DNA of 51,896 nt from positions 1-51,896 of the forward strand of contig JAETSN010000028.1 in assembly GCA_021769625.1 (NCBI GenBank). Direction: 5' to 3'. Source of the DNA: [Clostridium] symbiosum (GTDB lineage: Bacteria; Bacillota; Clostridia; Lachnospirales; Lachnospiraceae). Under the pieces are notes generated by a model. The model was not told the DNA's origin and did not search any database. It saw only the letters and a program-made list of their open reading frames with translations. Position numbers and translations under genes: made by a program. This document shows positions 22,652 to 43,315 of the stretch, one piece after another. Positions within the stretch are counted from its first letter, which is position 1; every line of letters begins with the position of its first letter.

Positions 22652-22825
22652 GTAACTGTTTAGCTCAGACAAGCGGGCGCAGTCATATCCTATGAAGACT
22701 GTAGAAAAACGTCGGCATTTAGGCGCCGTGTTTTGGCGCCTTATGTGCCCGCTACGTTTTTCTTCAAGCGAGAGCGTGTCTGAATAGGATATGACTGTGT
22801 CTACTTGTCTGGGCTGAACTGTTAC
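22652..22825. repeat. 174-nt palindromic element, copy 1
   Basis: Arms of 42 nt (22652-22693 and 22784-22825) are complementary with seven differences, several of them G-U compatible in RNA. The core (22694-22783) contains a second stem, GAAAAACGTCGGCAT with the complementary-like segment ending GCTACGTTTTTC, plus a GGCGCC/GGCGCC inner stem, followed by AAGCGAGAGCGTG. It begins 12 bases after the stop of the GNAT gene. A homologous core with unrelated arms lies at 42215-42389. Confidence 0.75.
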
Positions 22826-22837
22826 TCAGTCCCTTCC

Positions 22838-23338
22838 TCATACAAGCGATTCCCGTTTCTTTCTCTCCATAGTGTGATAGCAAAGAAAACCCCCGTTCTC
22901 TGTTTTGATCTTTTCATACGAAATGATCCGGTACCCCCGTTTCAGATACATACTTTCCGCCGGAAAAGAAGCGGCTACATGAACCTCCGGGTAATTTTCA
23001 AAAATCCTTGCCTCCAGTAGATCCATCAATCTGCTCCCATATCCATTCCCCTGATATTCGGGCAGAATAAACAACCTGCAGATCTCATTTTTCCGGATAC
23101 TCCCTGTTCCTACGATGTTTCCCTGTGCCATCGCAAGATAGACCTCTTCGGAGGACATCGCTTCTTCAATCCCCGCCTCGCTGTGCAGATCAAGGAAGAA
23201 CTGCACCACGCCTGACGGATAATAATGCGGGTACACGTTCTGTATTGTTTCCCTTACAATGGCAGCTATCTGTTTTGGACGATCTGCCAATTTTAATTTT
23301 ATATCGGCTTTGGGATATTGCTTAAAAAAACAAGTCAT
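22838..23338 (-). CDS. GNAT-family N-acetyltransferase
   Basis: A 166-residue acetyltransferase domain. The acetyl-CoA binding segment is ICRLFILPEYQGNGYGSRLMDLLE (Q-x-x-G-x-G), preceded by the strand VYLAMAQGNIVGTGSI and followed by SMYLKRGYRI. The start is placed at 23338 (GGAG five bases upstream), overlapping the preceding gene by 17 bases; the frame is open further upstream to 23404 but without a better site. Acceptor substrate unknown. Confidence 0.82.
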   Translation of the reverse strand: MTCFFKQYPKADIKLKLADRPKQIAAIVRETIQNVYPHYYPSGVVQFFLDLHSEAGIEEAMSSEEVYLAMAQGNIVGTGSIRKNEICRLFILPEYQGNGYGSRLMDLLEARIFENYPEVHVAASFPAESMYLKRGYRIISYEKIKTENGGFLCYHTMERKKRESLV

Positions 23339-23726
23339 TTTTCTCCGCCCACTCAAAAAATATTTGATCATAAATATCGCCGCATACCATTTCAAAGTCA
23401 TCATATAAATCTAATTCTCGCAACTTTTTGATAAAAGAATCTACATAATCACTGCATCTTAAAATATTGAACAGCTGCCTTCTGATATCTTTGTCGTCCA
23501 CACATTCTTTCACATAAAATCTCATTATATCTTTATGATTGATTTCATCGTATGTAAGAAAGCAAAAATTATTTTCATCCTTCTCAGGCAATCGTGCATT
23601 CACATCGAGATTCTGCAATTCAACTGCAGAAACCGGGTATCTATCAAAAATATTTGTATCTTTGTGATAAAAAAAATACACTCTCCTGTTATTTATTGCT
23701 AACATCATTTCTATAATCGAACTCAT
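23322..23726 (-). CDS. UPF0158-like small protein
   Basis: A 134-residue soluble protein with the general look of the UPF0158 family: an N-terminal strand pair after MSSIIEMMLAINNRRVYFF, a middle YDEINHKDIMRFYVKEC segment and the terminal DIYDQIFFEWAEKNDL. No function is established for that family. The ATG at 23726 has GGAGG eight bases upstream. It overlaps the downstream GNAT gene. Confidence 0.55.
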   Translation of the reverse strand: MSSIIEMMLAINNRRVYFFYHKDTNIFDRYPVSAVELQNLDVNARLPEKDENNFCFLTYDEINHKDIMRFYVKECVDDKDIRRQLFNILRCSDYVDSFIKKLRELDLYDDFEMVCGDIYDQIFFEWAEKNDLFF

Positions 23727-40238: not shown

Positions 40239-40352
40239 TCCGCTAATGCCTGTTTGCTTTACTTAACATATCCGCCCCGCCGATATATGCAGTTCCAATT
40301 CTTCGCTAATATCTGTCCGCTTTCTTAAATATATCCGCCCCCTGTGTGATAT
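40239..40352 (-). repeat. Tandem duplication of the sfsA-mutY gene end
   Basis: The last codons of the fusion gene (40302-40352) are repeated at 40239-40290, offset 63 bp. The second copy still reads GGADMLSKANRH and a stop, against QGADIFKKADRY and a stop in the gene. Confidence 0.65.
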
Positions 40353-42111
40353 CCAGATATTTCGCATAAGCTGCGTAAGCCGAAGGAATCGGGAATTTTT
40401 TTTCTATCTCCTCTTTTTCCGCAAAGATAAATCCGGCCTTTCGTGCCGCCGCTTCCTGATTTGCCAGCTCGTCCGTCCTGATCAGGTAACCTGTCATATG
40501 CCACTCTTTATGGGTAAAGATATGTTTGGCTTCTCCGATCCTCTGTATGCGCAGGGATACAAAACCCAGCTTTTTCAGATATTCCAGCACCTGCTCACCG
40601 CTCTGTTTTCCTGACAGGCAGGGGAACTCATAAAAGCCCGCGAGAAGTCCCTTTTCCTCTCTCTTCGTGAGCGCCACCCGCGTTTCATCCTGCAGTATGA
40701 GCACCGTTTTCTCCTCTTTTTTTCTTGCCTTCTTCGATGCCTTTTTGGGATATTCCATCATGCATTCCTGACGGTATGCCCTGCAGAATCCCCGCAGCGG
40801 GCACTCCTCACATTTCGGTTTCCCGTTCGGCAGACAGACCATGGCGCCCAGTTCCATCATCGCCTGATTGAAATCCCCGGGACGCTCATCCGGTATCACA
40901 TAGTAAAGTTCCTGCTCCACGGACCGTTTTACTTTTGCATCCAAGATATTCCGTTCGTCCATCATCACCCGGGAAAGCACCCGCAGCACATTCCCGTCCA
41001 CCGCGGGCGCCTTTTTCCCGTAGGCGATGGAAGACACCGCGCCCGCCGTATAACTGCCGATCCCCGGCAGCCTGCAGAGCTCCTCAAAATCCGCCGGCAT
41101 TTTCCCGCCGTATTCTCCCATGATCTGTCTCGCCGCCTTCTGCAGATTCCGCACTCTGTTATAGTAGCCGAGCCCTTCCCAGAGCTTTAACAGACTCTCT
41201 TCCTCAGCCTCCGCAAGAGCCTTTATATCCGGCAGCGCTTTTAAAAATCTGTCATAGTAGGGCTTCACCGCCTCCACCCTTGTCTGCTGCAGCATGATCT
41301 CCGAAAGCCACACATGGTAGGGCGTCGGCTCCTCCCTCCAGGGCAGGATGCGTCTCCCTCCATCGTACCAGTCAAGAAGCGGCTCCGGTATCCGGTCCAT
41401 CTCGGAAAGATATACCGGAAGAGGATTCCTGATCTCCATGGAATCCGCCGTCACAAGGCAGTCTCTGGCGATGATCCGAACGCCCGCCCTTCTCGCCTCC
41501 AGCAGAACTTCCGCAAATTCCGGCTGGGTTCTTCGGTTCGGCACCACACAGTCCACCCGGTCCATCTGTACGACAAAGAGAAGAAAGGCTTCATACCCCG
41601 CTTCCCTTGCCCTTATCAGTTCTTTTACATGTTTTACAGCCCTCTCCGACGGCGCGTCCGGAAAACTGCCGACACCGTTTTCCTCCAGCGTACAGCCCTT
41701 TACTTCCATATATATTTTTCTGGCGCCGCCGTTTTCATCCGCCGCTTCCATATAAAAATCAAACCGCGACTCCCCGAATGTCATCTCCGGCCTCAAGCAG
41801 ATAATATCGGAAAAAAGCCCCCCGGCGAGCAGCCACTCCCCCACCGCCTTATTGGGCGCCTGGGAATCCATATTGACGATCCTGCCCTCCTTCTCCACCG
41901 CCACAAGGTCATAGGCTGTGGAGCGCTCCGCATTTTCCGAATGCTCCAGATAGACGGCCGCACCCTCCTTCAACAGTTCCCGGCACCTGCCGGTATTTTT
42001 CACATGTACCTTTTCTTCCTTCCCATCCACCGTCACATAGGCGATAAACCTGTTGGGCCTCGAGAGGAACGTTCCCTGTTTTATATGCTCATATCTCATC
42101 TGTCCCGGCAC
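40306..42111 (-). CDS. SfsA-MutY fusion: nuclease-like domain plus A/G-specific adenine glycosylase
   Basis: Up to 601 residues. Residues 1-235 are a full SfsA domain (IKQGTFLSRPNRFIAYV, VKNTGRC, MEVKGCTLEENG). Residues about 240-460 are MutY: catalytic Glu in WLSEIMLQQTRVE (E271), helix-hairpin-helix LPGIGSYTAGAV, catalytic Asp in AVDGNVLRVL (D372), then four iron-sulfur cysteines (CLPNGKPKCEECPLRGFC). Residues about 465-595 form the MutT-like C domain that recognises 8-oxoG. The start is GTG at 42111 (AGGAG 3 bases away) or the ATG at 42099, which matches the family opening MRYEHIKQGTF. The fusion means adenine removal opposite oxidised guanine may be coupled to a nucleic-acid-processing domain. 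SfsA function is debated. Confidence 0.9.
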   Translation of the reverse strand: MPGQMRYEHIKQGTFLSRPNRFIAYVTVDGKEEKVHVKNTGRCRELLKEGAAVYLEHSENAERSTAYDLVAVEKEGRIVNMDSQAPNKAVGEWLLAGGLFSDIICLRPEMTFGESRFDFYMEAADENGGARKIYMEVKGCTLEENGVGSFPDAPSERAVKHVKELIRAREAGYEAFLLFVVQMDRVDCVVPNRRTQPEFAEVLLEARRAGVRIIARDCLVTADSMEIRNPLPVYLSEMDRIPEPLLDWYDGGRRILPWREEPTPYHVWLSEIMLQQTRVEAVKPYYDRFLKALPDIKALAEAEEESLLKLWEGLGYYNRVRNLQKAARQIMGEYGGKMPADFEELCRLPGIGSYTAGAVSSIAYGKKAPAVDGNVLRVLSRVMMDERNILDAKVKRSVEQELYYVIPDERPGDFNQAMMELGAMVCLPNGKPKCEECPLRGFCRAYRQECMMEYPKKASKKARKKEEKTVLILQDETRVALTKREEKGLLAGFYEFPCLSGKQSGEQVLEYLKKLGFVSLRIQRIGEAKHIFTHKEWHMTGYLIRTDELANQEAAARKAGFIFAEKEEIEKKFPIPSAYAAYAKYLDITQGADIFKKADRY

Positions 42112-42214
42112 CGTCTCCTATCTATATCACCTGTCGCTGTCCGGATTTCATCCCACAGTCTCTTCTCCGTCATCATACCTCCGCCATTCATAACAGTTTA
42201 ACCTACAATGTCAT

Positions 42215-42389
42215 TGAGTTATCACCTCAGCCAGCAGGTAAGAACATAAAATGCTTAAGGAGCCCTTTGAAAAACGCCGGCACTTGGCGAGGTCTCTTAC
42301 GAGCTTAGTGTCCGCTGCGTTTTTCACAGAGCGCGAGCGTGGCAACGAAGTATTTTATGTTCTTACCTGCGTCCGCCCTCATTAACTCA
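42215..42389. repeat. 175-nt palindromic element, copy 2
   Basis: Arms of 42 nt (42215-42256 and 42348-42389): the inner 22 bases (CAGGTAAGAACATAAAAT then G/A CTT) and outer 7 pair, the middle less well. The core (42257-42347) has GAAAAACGCCGGCACT and TCCGCTGCGTTTTTC forming a second stem, then GAGCGCGAGCGTGG. Overall length and arm length equal those of copy 1 while arm sequence is unrelated. It starts eight bases after the 5'-nucleotidase stop. Confidence 0.75.
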
Positions 42390-42397
42390 ATAAAATC

Positions 42398-43315
42398 TCA
42401 CGGTCCCCTCCCCTCATGCCGGACCGGCACCCTCGCCGCCGGGACCACTTCCGAAGCCGGTTCTGTGTGTACCGCCTGGTCGTCAAAGAAAATATGCGCC
42501 CCGAACGCTTTCAGGATATCTTTTTTCTGCACCCCGCCCAGAAAAAAAGCTTCGTCGATCCTCACGCCCCAGGCGCGCAGCGTGCGGATGACCCTCTCGT
42601 GGGCAGGCGCGCTCCTCGCCGTTACAAGAGCCGTCCTGATCGGCGCCTGTTCCTGCGGAAACTCTTTCTGGAGTTCCGAAAGAGTCTTTAAAAACTTGGC
42701 AAAGGGCCCCGCCTGCAGCGGATTTTTCGCATTTTCCCGCTCATTTTTCTCAAAGGCCTCCAACCCCTCCGCCTGATAGATCTGTTCTGATTCATCGGAG
42801 AAGAGCACTGCATCCCCGTCAAAGGCGATGCGGATCTGGCTGATATCCCCGTCACAGTTATAGGTGTGGATCCCTTCGCCGCAGATGATCCCCGCCGCTA
42901 TGCCGCTGTCTATAGCCCCCTGCACATCCTCCTCATAAGCCGATAAAAACAGATCCGTCTTAAAAGCCGTAAGGTAAGGCGCAAGGGAAACGCCGCTGAC
43001 CAACGCCGCCCGCGTAATATCCAATCCGTATTCCCGGATCGCGTTGAATACCCGAAGCGAAGTATCGGGGCTGTTGCGGGACATCACGATCACCTCCACC
43101 CGCCCTTCCTGTCCGGGTATCTTATTCAGATTCAGCAGTGCCCTGATCAGGGCGAAACCCGGGCCGGGCTTAAGCAGCTCATGCTCATGCTCCACCTGAT
43201 AACTGCAGTACGCCTCCACACCCTCCCTCTCAAAAAGTTCGTTTTCCTTTGAGAGATCAAAGAGCGCTCTCGAGGACACGCCGATCACCAGCCTGTTATC
43301 CAGATCAAATGCCAT
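42398..43315 (-). CDS. Cytosolic 5'-nucleotidase (NT5C1/PF06189 type)
   Basis: A 305-residue HAD-like nucleotidase: the N terminus MAFDLDNRLVIGVSSRALFD, SRNSPDTSLRVFNAIREYGLDITRAALVSG, the central RIAFDGDAVLFSDESE acid motif and HIFFDDQAVH near the end are family landmarks. It removes the 5'-phosphate from nucleoside monophosphates. No operon partner is evident. Confidence 0.85.
   Translation of the reverse strand: MAFDLDNRLVIGVSSRALFDLSKENELFEREGVEAYCSYQVEHEHELLKPGPGFALIRALLNLNKIPGQEGRVEVIVMSRNSPDTSLRVFNAIREYGLDITRAALVSGVSLAPYLTAFKTDLFLSAYEEDVQGAIDSGIAAGIICGEGIHTYNCDGDISQIRIAFDGDAVLFSDESEQIYQAEGLEAFEKNERENAKNPLQAGPFAKFLKTLSELQKEFPQEQAPIRTALVTARSAPAHERVIRTLRAWGVRIDEAFFLGGVQKKDILKAFGAHIFFDDQAVHTEPASEVVPAARVPVRHEGRGP

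Follow-up and report, generated by a model that had tools for sequence, protein, structure and literature searches.

A dispersed family of Lachnospiraceae elements with a maintained branched RNA fold

Introduction

The window analysed here, a stretch of 51,896 nucleotides of [Clostridium] symbiosum DNA, carries two palindromic elements, A and B, whose cores resemble each other and whose arms do not. A preliminary description had noted that the cores align and that the unrelated arm sequences nevertheless each pair with their own partner arm, and our alignments and folds bear out both points. The locus therefore raises the question of what has been kept in these elements: an RNA structure, the ends of a transposon, or the trace of a mechanism that copies flanking sequence in inverted form.

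Results

Layout of the two elements

Element A, measured as a complete unit from one terminal repeat to the other, occupies positions 22652–22825 on the + strand; both the folding and the terminal-repeat ends define it, and its limits coincide with the inverted-repeat ends GTAAC...GTTAC. The 5′ arm of its basal stem (22652–22693, +) begins with a 14-nt terminal repeat variant, GTAACTGTTTAGCT, and the partner 3′ arm (22784–22825, +) has the terminal repeat GGCTGAACTGTTAC at its end. The arms form 42 bp with seven non-Watson–Crick positions, five of them G·U. Enclosed by the arms are the conserved P2 hairpin of the core (22704–22762, +) and the P3 hairpin (22768–22775, +), GC-GAGA-GC, which has a GNRA loop. 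The predicted minimum free energy of A (22652–22825) is −103.3 kcal/mol (z = −12.95), and none of 200 shuffled sequences folded as low. An antisense GNAT acetyltransferase gene (22838–23404, −) has its stop codon 12 nt beyond the 3′ end of A.

Element B begins with a left terminal repeat variant, ATAACAGTTTAACC, at 42190–42203 (+), outside the coordinates previously given to it. This is followed by a left outer arm that has decayed in part (42206–42221, +), a 5′ inner arm of 23 bp (42234–42256, +), the conserved P2 hairpin (42269–42325, +), a P3 hairpin GC-GCGA-GC, again with a GNRA loop (42331–42338, +), the partner 3′ inner arm (42348–42370, +), after which comes a conserved GTCCG, and the remnant of a right outer arm (42380–42396, +). 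The continuous arm of B is thus 23 bp long, and outside it there is an internal loop of 12 nt on each side and then an outer helix of 7 bp. The 42-nt arms first reported for both elements hold for A and not for B, and the equal lengths of 174–175 nt reflect where B was cut, since its unit begins at the terminal repeat at 42190, beyond 42215. A right-hand terminal repeat matching the left one of B was looked for and not found. Folding of the segment 42215–42389 gave −74.4 kcal/mol (z = −7.11), again with none of 200 shuffles as low. From the 3′ inner arm of B (42348–42370) it is 27 nt to the stop codon of an antisense 5′-nucleotidase gene (42398–43315, −).

On the other side of B, the region 40306–42111 (−) of the window holds a single ORF of 601 amino acids with SfsA domains followed by HhH-GPD, iron–sulfur and NUDIX domains (MutY-like), an apparent sfsA–mutY fusion.

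Further copies and subfamilies

Elements A and B are members of one dispersed family. A covariance model built from 49 copies of their own genome found the family at at least 150 places in this 4.08-Mb draft (all E ≤1.4e-10; a few of those at contig ends may be duplicate readings of a single copy) and, at E ≤ 1e-4, in 98 of 250 Lachnospiraceae genomes (249 genera, own genome included). A strict core pattern matched 34 places in the own genome and the reversed control pattern none. The pattern-derived list of own-genome copies had 72 rows, of which two were dropped as not being elements.

Sequence searches of the own genome were made with both elements. A has two full-length relatives, at C63:3850 (88%) and C84:4324 (86%), and more than thirty other places match it in part, around the core; B matches at least 39 other places with 80–92% identity over most of its length. 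The family thus comprises several subfamilies with unrelated arms and one common core, the arms being shared inside each subfamily. The view that copies do not share their arms therefore stands between subfamilies and fails within them, where copies do share arm sequence as ordinary terminal repeats would. The RNA reading survives this sharing because the covariation between subfamilies, described below, still holds.

Two further features were seen among the copies. Variants with an extra hairpin (CACAGGCTCTTGA..ACAGAGCC) between P2 and P3 occur at L034, L035, L037, L065, L069, L070 and other loci, and in several own-genome copies (L014, L066, L082) the left outer arm is immediately preceded by a further repeat, CATATTTAACTGCATGGGCG.

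Consensus fold and covariation

The consensus element is 146 positions long and its fold is branched: the arms form the basal stem P1, which is followed by a short inner helix, the P2 hairpin and the GC-GNRA-GC hairpin P3. P1 varies freely in sequence yet stays paired. P2 has the consensus GAAAAACGYCGGYACUUAG...CUUAGURYCCGCURCGUUUUUC, and its lower part covaries too.

RNAalifold, applied to 49 own-genome copies, predicted 43 pairs, 26 of which were changed on both sides. The covariation score was 0.366, compared to 0.116 for shuffled and at most 0.074 for slid controls. For 100 matches from 80 loci, in an alignment that was fitted to the model and so leans towards it, the score was 0.674 (shuffled, 0.162; slid, at most 0.105), 95.0% of cells were paired and 41 of the 43 pairs showed double changes. 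These 80 loci, out of 106 fetched, are mostly named records of other species, and some are from the congener G008 (CANSLJ). Paralogous copies are not independent, which makes p-values based on copies optimistic.

The P3 loop is constrained as well. Its third base was a purine in all 225 copies scored (of 244) and its second base was never T; the selection of loops rewards G and A at positions 1 and 4, leaving only positions 2 and 3 unbiased. For arm lengths, arm pairing and wobble counts we used the best-paired stretches, which lowers the mismatch counts. Arms of 22–26 bp were found in 52/66 copies from the own genome, 31/48 from G008 and 32/98 from other genera, where the range was 12–68. The paired stretches of some copies reached 68 positions. 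Outside the own genome, the median pairing score of an arm was 21 with its own partner and 6 with a swapped partner.

Inner and outer arms

The outer arms of the same elements allow pairing to be compared within copies. We took 30 own-genome copies with outer arms that are still recognisable; for inclusion, agreement with the consensus at as few as 8 of the 17 positions sufficed on one side. Their 17-bp outer arms were mismatched at 197 of 510 pairs, with no strand bias (G·U 42, A·C 45). In the inner arms of the same copies, only 19 of 660 pairs were mismatched in a fixed 22-nt window (15 of 669 when the best-paired stretch was used). For nine copies with better-kept outer arms the counts were 20/153 (outer) and 6/198 (inner), and for the six with the best-kept outer arms they were 6/102 and 4/132. 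Mismatches in the outer arms thus rise from 6% to 39%, with those in the inner arms steady at 3%. Since the outer arms have decayed and the inner arms of the same 30 copies have not, pairing of the inner arms is maintained.

Wobble pairs indicate which strand is concerned. The best-paired inner stretches of 70 own-genome copies had 39 mismatches in 1635 pairs, with 26 G·U and 7 A·C when read on the core strand. On the same strand, the G·U:A·C ratios in other genera were 12:1 and 47:14; the inner arms of congener G008 went against the trend (1:8). Copies from outside the own genome are represented by 150 of 174 in this count (14 had no long paired arm and 10 were too near the end of the locus). 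G·U therefore exceeds A·C in three of the four data sets.

A branched RNA fold is thus maintained in these dispersed elements. The proposals that pairing rather than sequence is preserved and that an RNA structure has been selected are both supported by covariation far above the shuffled and slid controls, by the purine in the P3 loop, by inner arms that remain paired beside decayed outer ones and by the wobble bias in three of the four data sets.

Terminal repeats, mobility and empty sites

Element A and several other copies end in variants of GTAACAGTTCAGCC / GGCTGAACTGTTAC; of the 72 rows of own-genome copies, 20 had one on either side. As A and B both carry variants of one terminal repeat, the initial contrast with transposons, whose ends would be conserved, was overdrawn. 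In the DNA of the loci examined, there were 17 terminal-repeat pairs within 4 kb. Four of these were flanked by an exact 8-bp duplication (L003, L021, L032, L061), and in two more 7 of 8 bp were duplicated; no target duplication was found beside A in the window. Some copies therefore belong to short units that resemble transposons, having inverted repeats and target duplications of 8 bp. Most own-genome copies have no recognisable ends on both sides and have kept the RNA fold.

Comparison with relatives showed sites with and without the element. Eight of eight congeners lack B in the corresponding gap, G008 has empty sites opposite own-genome elements at L014, L045 and L074, and the reverse is seen at L151/L016. 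Across nine congeneric genomes, own genome included, the copy number ranges from 0 to at least 150.

We looked for an enzyme that could serve these elements. Ends of the GTAACAGTTCAGCC type with 8-bp duplications are, we assume, IS66-like; no IS66 transposase matched in the own draft genome, and an IS66 partner was set aside for this draft. A RAYT partner was rejected for this genome: its one Y1_Tnp gene (C105:445-801) is of the IS200 type, lies near a contig end and has no adjoining copy among the matches listed. Three long terminal-repeat pairs (L300, L318, L229), considered as candidate autonomous partner elements in the draft genome, enclose host-like ORFs among which no transposase was recognised by eye.

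The terminal repeats also occur in other arrangements. Solo hairpins of 72 and 41 bp (L301 1535–1606 and L307 1103–1143) carry GTAACAGTTCAGCC and its complement and are too short to hold the core. At L045 2979–3120 / L159 5700–5880, the own genome has an element with the arms GCCCGGTTCC...GGAACCGGGC followed by a T-run where G008 has a short, terminator-like GCCCGG hairpin; either an element was inserted into the loop of a terminator, or an element has collapsed into one, or the difference is due to chance. In one Blautia MAG, the sequence upstream of the copies at four loci (L203, L205, L215, L260) is common to them but of a different kind (about GATTGCGAAACT), and it may be a second type of terminal repeat for the same RNA core.

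Distribution, gene context and neighbouring copies

At least 106 stretches matched in a scan of one genome per species. The titles of the matches listed name Lachnospiraceae, Blautia, Butyrivibrio, Mediterraneibacter, Acetatifactor, Eisenbergiella, Lacrimispora and Kineothrix, and others are as broad as Clostridia, Bacillota or uncultured bacterium. Ruminococcus turbiniformis CLA-AA-H200 and Butyrivibrio sp. WCD3002 are among the matches. One viral contig has a copy. The core pattern was also seen on two contigs (L250, L281) of a single MAG with the label Muribaculaceae (Bacteroidota), for which contamination of the MAG or transfer is possible.

The copies are mostly intergenic. Gene context was scored for 204 of 244 copies, the others having no neighbouring gene or lying inside a predicted ORF, and the genes were taken as longest ORFs, unannotated. 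For 142 of these 204 copies with two scorable neighbours, the gene on the 5′ side was further away than that on the 3′ side. Between co-directional genes, copies in the own genome were antisense in 34 cases and sense in 7, an excess that would be expected if the sense RNA were active and costly inside operons. No such bias was seen elsewhere (antisense:sense 22:16 in G008, 22:25 in named species and 4:5 in other genera).

Where two copies are close neighbours, they are inverted with their 5′ ends facing. This ‘−+’ arrangement was found in 25 of 27 distinct pairs and ‘+−’ in none; the count combines 19/21 pairs, three of them from one locus (L241), with 9/9 pairs, three of which are the ileS loci counted twice. 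Genome-wide match lists add at least four ‘−+’ and at least two ‘−−’ pairs, and among the matches listed for the own genome, few copies have a close partner. Convergent genes were considered as the source of this orientation and dismissed, the orientation of the genes around the inspected pairs being mixed.

Neither a promoter nor a terminator could be assigned to the element. No positioned, strand-specific promoter signal was found upstream. An own promoter was rejected on the grounds that there is no positioned enrichment of TATAAT/TTGACA outside the own genus and that the signal within the genus is made by a family-specific repeat. A TTTTT within 25 nt past the 3′ arm was present in 2/66 own-genome, 1/48 G008 and 3/98 other-genera copies, a rarity that led us to reject an intrinsic terminator.

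Origin and change of the arms

It had been suggested that an unfamiliar duplication mechanism might make inverted copies of flanking sequence. In 12 stretches from relatives with an empty site, the longest exact match to the arm was 5–9 nt, and the maxima for random stretches of the same loci were 8–10 nt. A 12-mer common to an arm and its own locus was found for 2 of 212 arms, against 5.5 expected from other loci; this test masks 90 nt on each side of the element and speaks only of DNA further off. With both measures at chance or below, arms copied from flanking DNA were rejected.

Orthologous loci show how arms do change. The L164/L007 orthologues differ in their arms by about seven compensated changes, and both are still paired. 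In the L176/L071 orthologues, the arms are unrelated and of different lengths and the core is nearly identical.

Three species (L253 5522–5894, L264 3700–4122 and L238 5700–6180) share a conserved inverted pair of elements upstream of ileS, situated between a terminator-like hairpin and that gene. The ‘+’ copy has kept its arms in the three species, with a few G·U intermediates, and ends just before the ribosome-binding-site-like AGAAAGGA. The ‘−’ copy has a conserved core and arms that differ in each species, each self-complementary, within L253 and L238 flanks that are about 93–96% identical. Import of a diverged allele or rewriting of the arms would explain this change, either of them sufficing; we therefore did not take arm turnover alone as proof of an exotic mechanism. 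No Rfam T-box match was found in L253, L238 or L264.

Discussion

The most likely function of the element is that of a cis-acting structured RNA spread by transposition. As an explanation of the family as a whole, we favour a dispersed structured RNA of the Lachnospiraceae that acts in cis in transcripts and was amplified by transposition, to which we give a probability of roughly 55%. The selected product would be the RNA strand, acting in cis within any transcript that runs through it. P1 may serve as a clamp of free sequence that isolates and stabilises the core, and P2 and P3 would be the functional part, folding or binding a putative protein. The element could then be a hairpin that serves the punctuation, processing or stability of host mRNAs, and it was probably amplified by a transposase that acted on the GTAACAGTTCAGCC ends in trans.

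The evidence on mobility would also suit an ordinary MITE family, in which the arms are long terminal inverted repeats and the hairpin is the mere body of a transposon: there are terminal repeats with 8-bp duplications, a high and variable copy number among congeners, and empty sites in relatives. We nonetheless consider this unlikely. The persistence of paired inner arms beside decaying outer arms in the same copies already weakens it, and further points against it are that the arms covary between subfamilies and genera, that the third base of the P3 loop is a purine in every copy scored and that the ileS-leader copies are conserved in three species. Slightly less likely again is correction at the DNA level, by which the arms would be rewritten from each other through replication template switching (quasi-palindrome correction) and would thereby be kept as perfect palindromes with no selection involved. 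The use of all four Watson–Crick pair types in P1 with few wobbles, the excess of A·C over G·U in G008, the paired stretches of up to 68 positions and the replacement of whole arms between two close species at ileS would all fit such a process, although import of a diverged allele also explains the last of these. Against it, the outer arms of the same palindromes have gone uncorrected, wobbles are no commoner in lower P2 than in P1, three of the four data sets have more G·U than A·C on one strand, and the arms were not found at the empty sites or elsewhere in their own loci.

Two further readings place the activity elsewhere. The hairpin might be a single-stranded DNA substrate, recognised by a HUH/Y1-type or other transposase in the manner of REPINs and selected for mobility; this seems to us improbable, given that target duplications of 8 bp suggest a DDE enzyme, that GNRA is an RNA motif, that the one Y1 gene of the own genome has no copy nearby among the matches listed and that pairing is kept in copies with decayed outer ends. 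In its favour are the conserved CA and GTCC that flank the arms in the own genus and the predominance of ‘−+’ pairs, which recalls the REP dimers described in the available text of PMC3733652. We give least credence to a trans-acting RNA or guide precursor, in which a 22–26-bp arm would be processed to a sequence-specific RNA with the core as scaffold. The arm lengths in the own genome and G008 and the great diversity of arms on one scaffold are what it predicts, but only a third or so (32/98) of the arms in other genera fall within 22–26 bp, and no promoter signal was detected. In the part of each genome searched, moreover, 15-mers of the arms occurred elsewhere for 7/66 own-genome copies (reversed-arm control, 1) and 0/48 G008 copies; the seven are probably unmasked copies, and no convincing arm target was found in that part.

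A cis-acting RNA would have wider consequences. Repeats scattered through bacterial genomes are often taken for selfish DNA, and their palindromes for side-effects of transposition, and the contrast between decaying ends and a paired RNA part in the same copies offers a direct, genome-wide test of whether repeats turn into RNA of use to the host. Many genera of the Lachnospiraceae, some of them copy-rich, contain the family, and it has no Rfam match above the gathering score in the loci searched, so that it may represent unannotated structure in many host transcripts. A stronger version, which we regard as speculative, is that of a family-wide RNA class, as yet without a name, in which the hundred or more copies of copy-rich genomes are individually selected as functional hairpins, with arms that may be bound or processed. 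If true, it would be a bacterial counterpart of mass-exapted short transposons, combining a conserved scaffold with locus-specific duplex arms.

Rfam 15 gave no match above the gathering score for the window or for L238, L253 and L264; one sub-threshold match (42367–42450, −; E 9.3) was to a human lncRNA family. The element is not described in the available text of the openly licensed literature, which includes PMC3733652, PMC8040213, PMC11109978 and PMC3049150 without their supplementary candidate lists. Among the 250 mobile or repeat sequence candidates of PMC11109978, MRSC-65-2 is described in the available text as a multi-copy covarying motif with no consistent gene orientation that is likely selfish and has a UYCCGG repeat. 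Our element resembles it in the first two respects and is set apart, by that description only, through the UYCCGG repeat; it may be identical with one of the 250 candidates. Compared with MITEs that make 8-bp duplications, the fullest copies are alike in their inverted terminal repeats and target duplications, and the family differs in that the own genome has no IS66 transposase match and most copies lack both ends and retain the fold.

The closest kinds of known repeat are the REPs and REPINs and the BOX-type repeats, which share some but not all of their defining features with the present element. In CGTC repeats, the order of the tags at the ends differs from the order of CA and GTCC here, and the own genome has no RAYT partner that we could see. 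To our knowledge, the sequences of BOX, RUP and SPRITE are unrelated to that of the element. REPs are 20–40 bp long, carry GTAG or CGTC tags and prefer inverted dimers (PMC3733652, available text). Going by that text, the element is like them in being a palindrome with short conserved unpaired tags beside the stem and a preference for inverted dimers, and unlike them in its length of about 146 nt, its conserved branched core and its flanking bases CA and GTCC. The BOX, RUP and SPRITE repeats of Streptococcus pneumoniae are short, interspersed and present in many copies, with predicted RNA folds and IS-like terminal repeats; some are co-transcribed with operons, and one lies between T-box motifs (PMC3049150, as far as its available text goes). 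The present element shares with them this combination of short, interspersed many-copy repeats, a predicted RNA fold and terminal repeats, and it differs in having no boxA/B/C modules and instead a branched fold, which includes a GNRA hairpin and has arms that covary freely, found across many genera.
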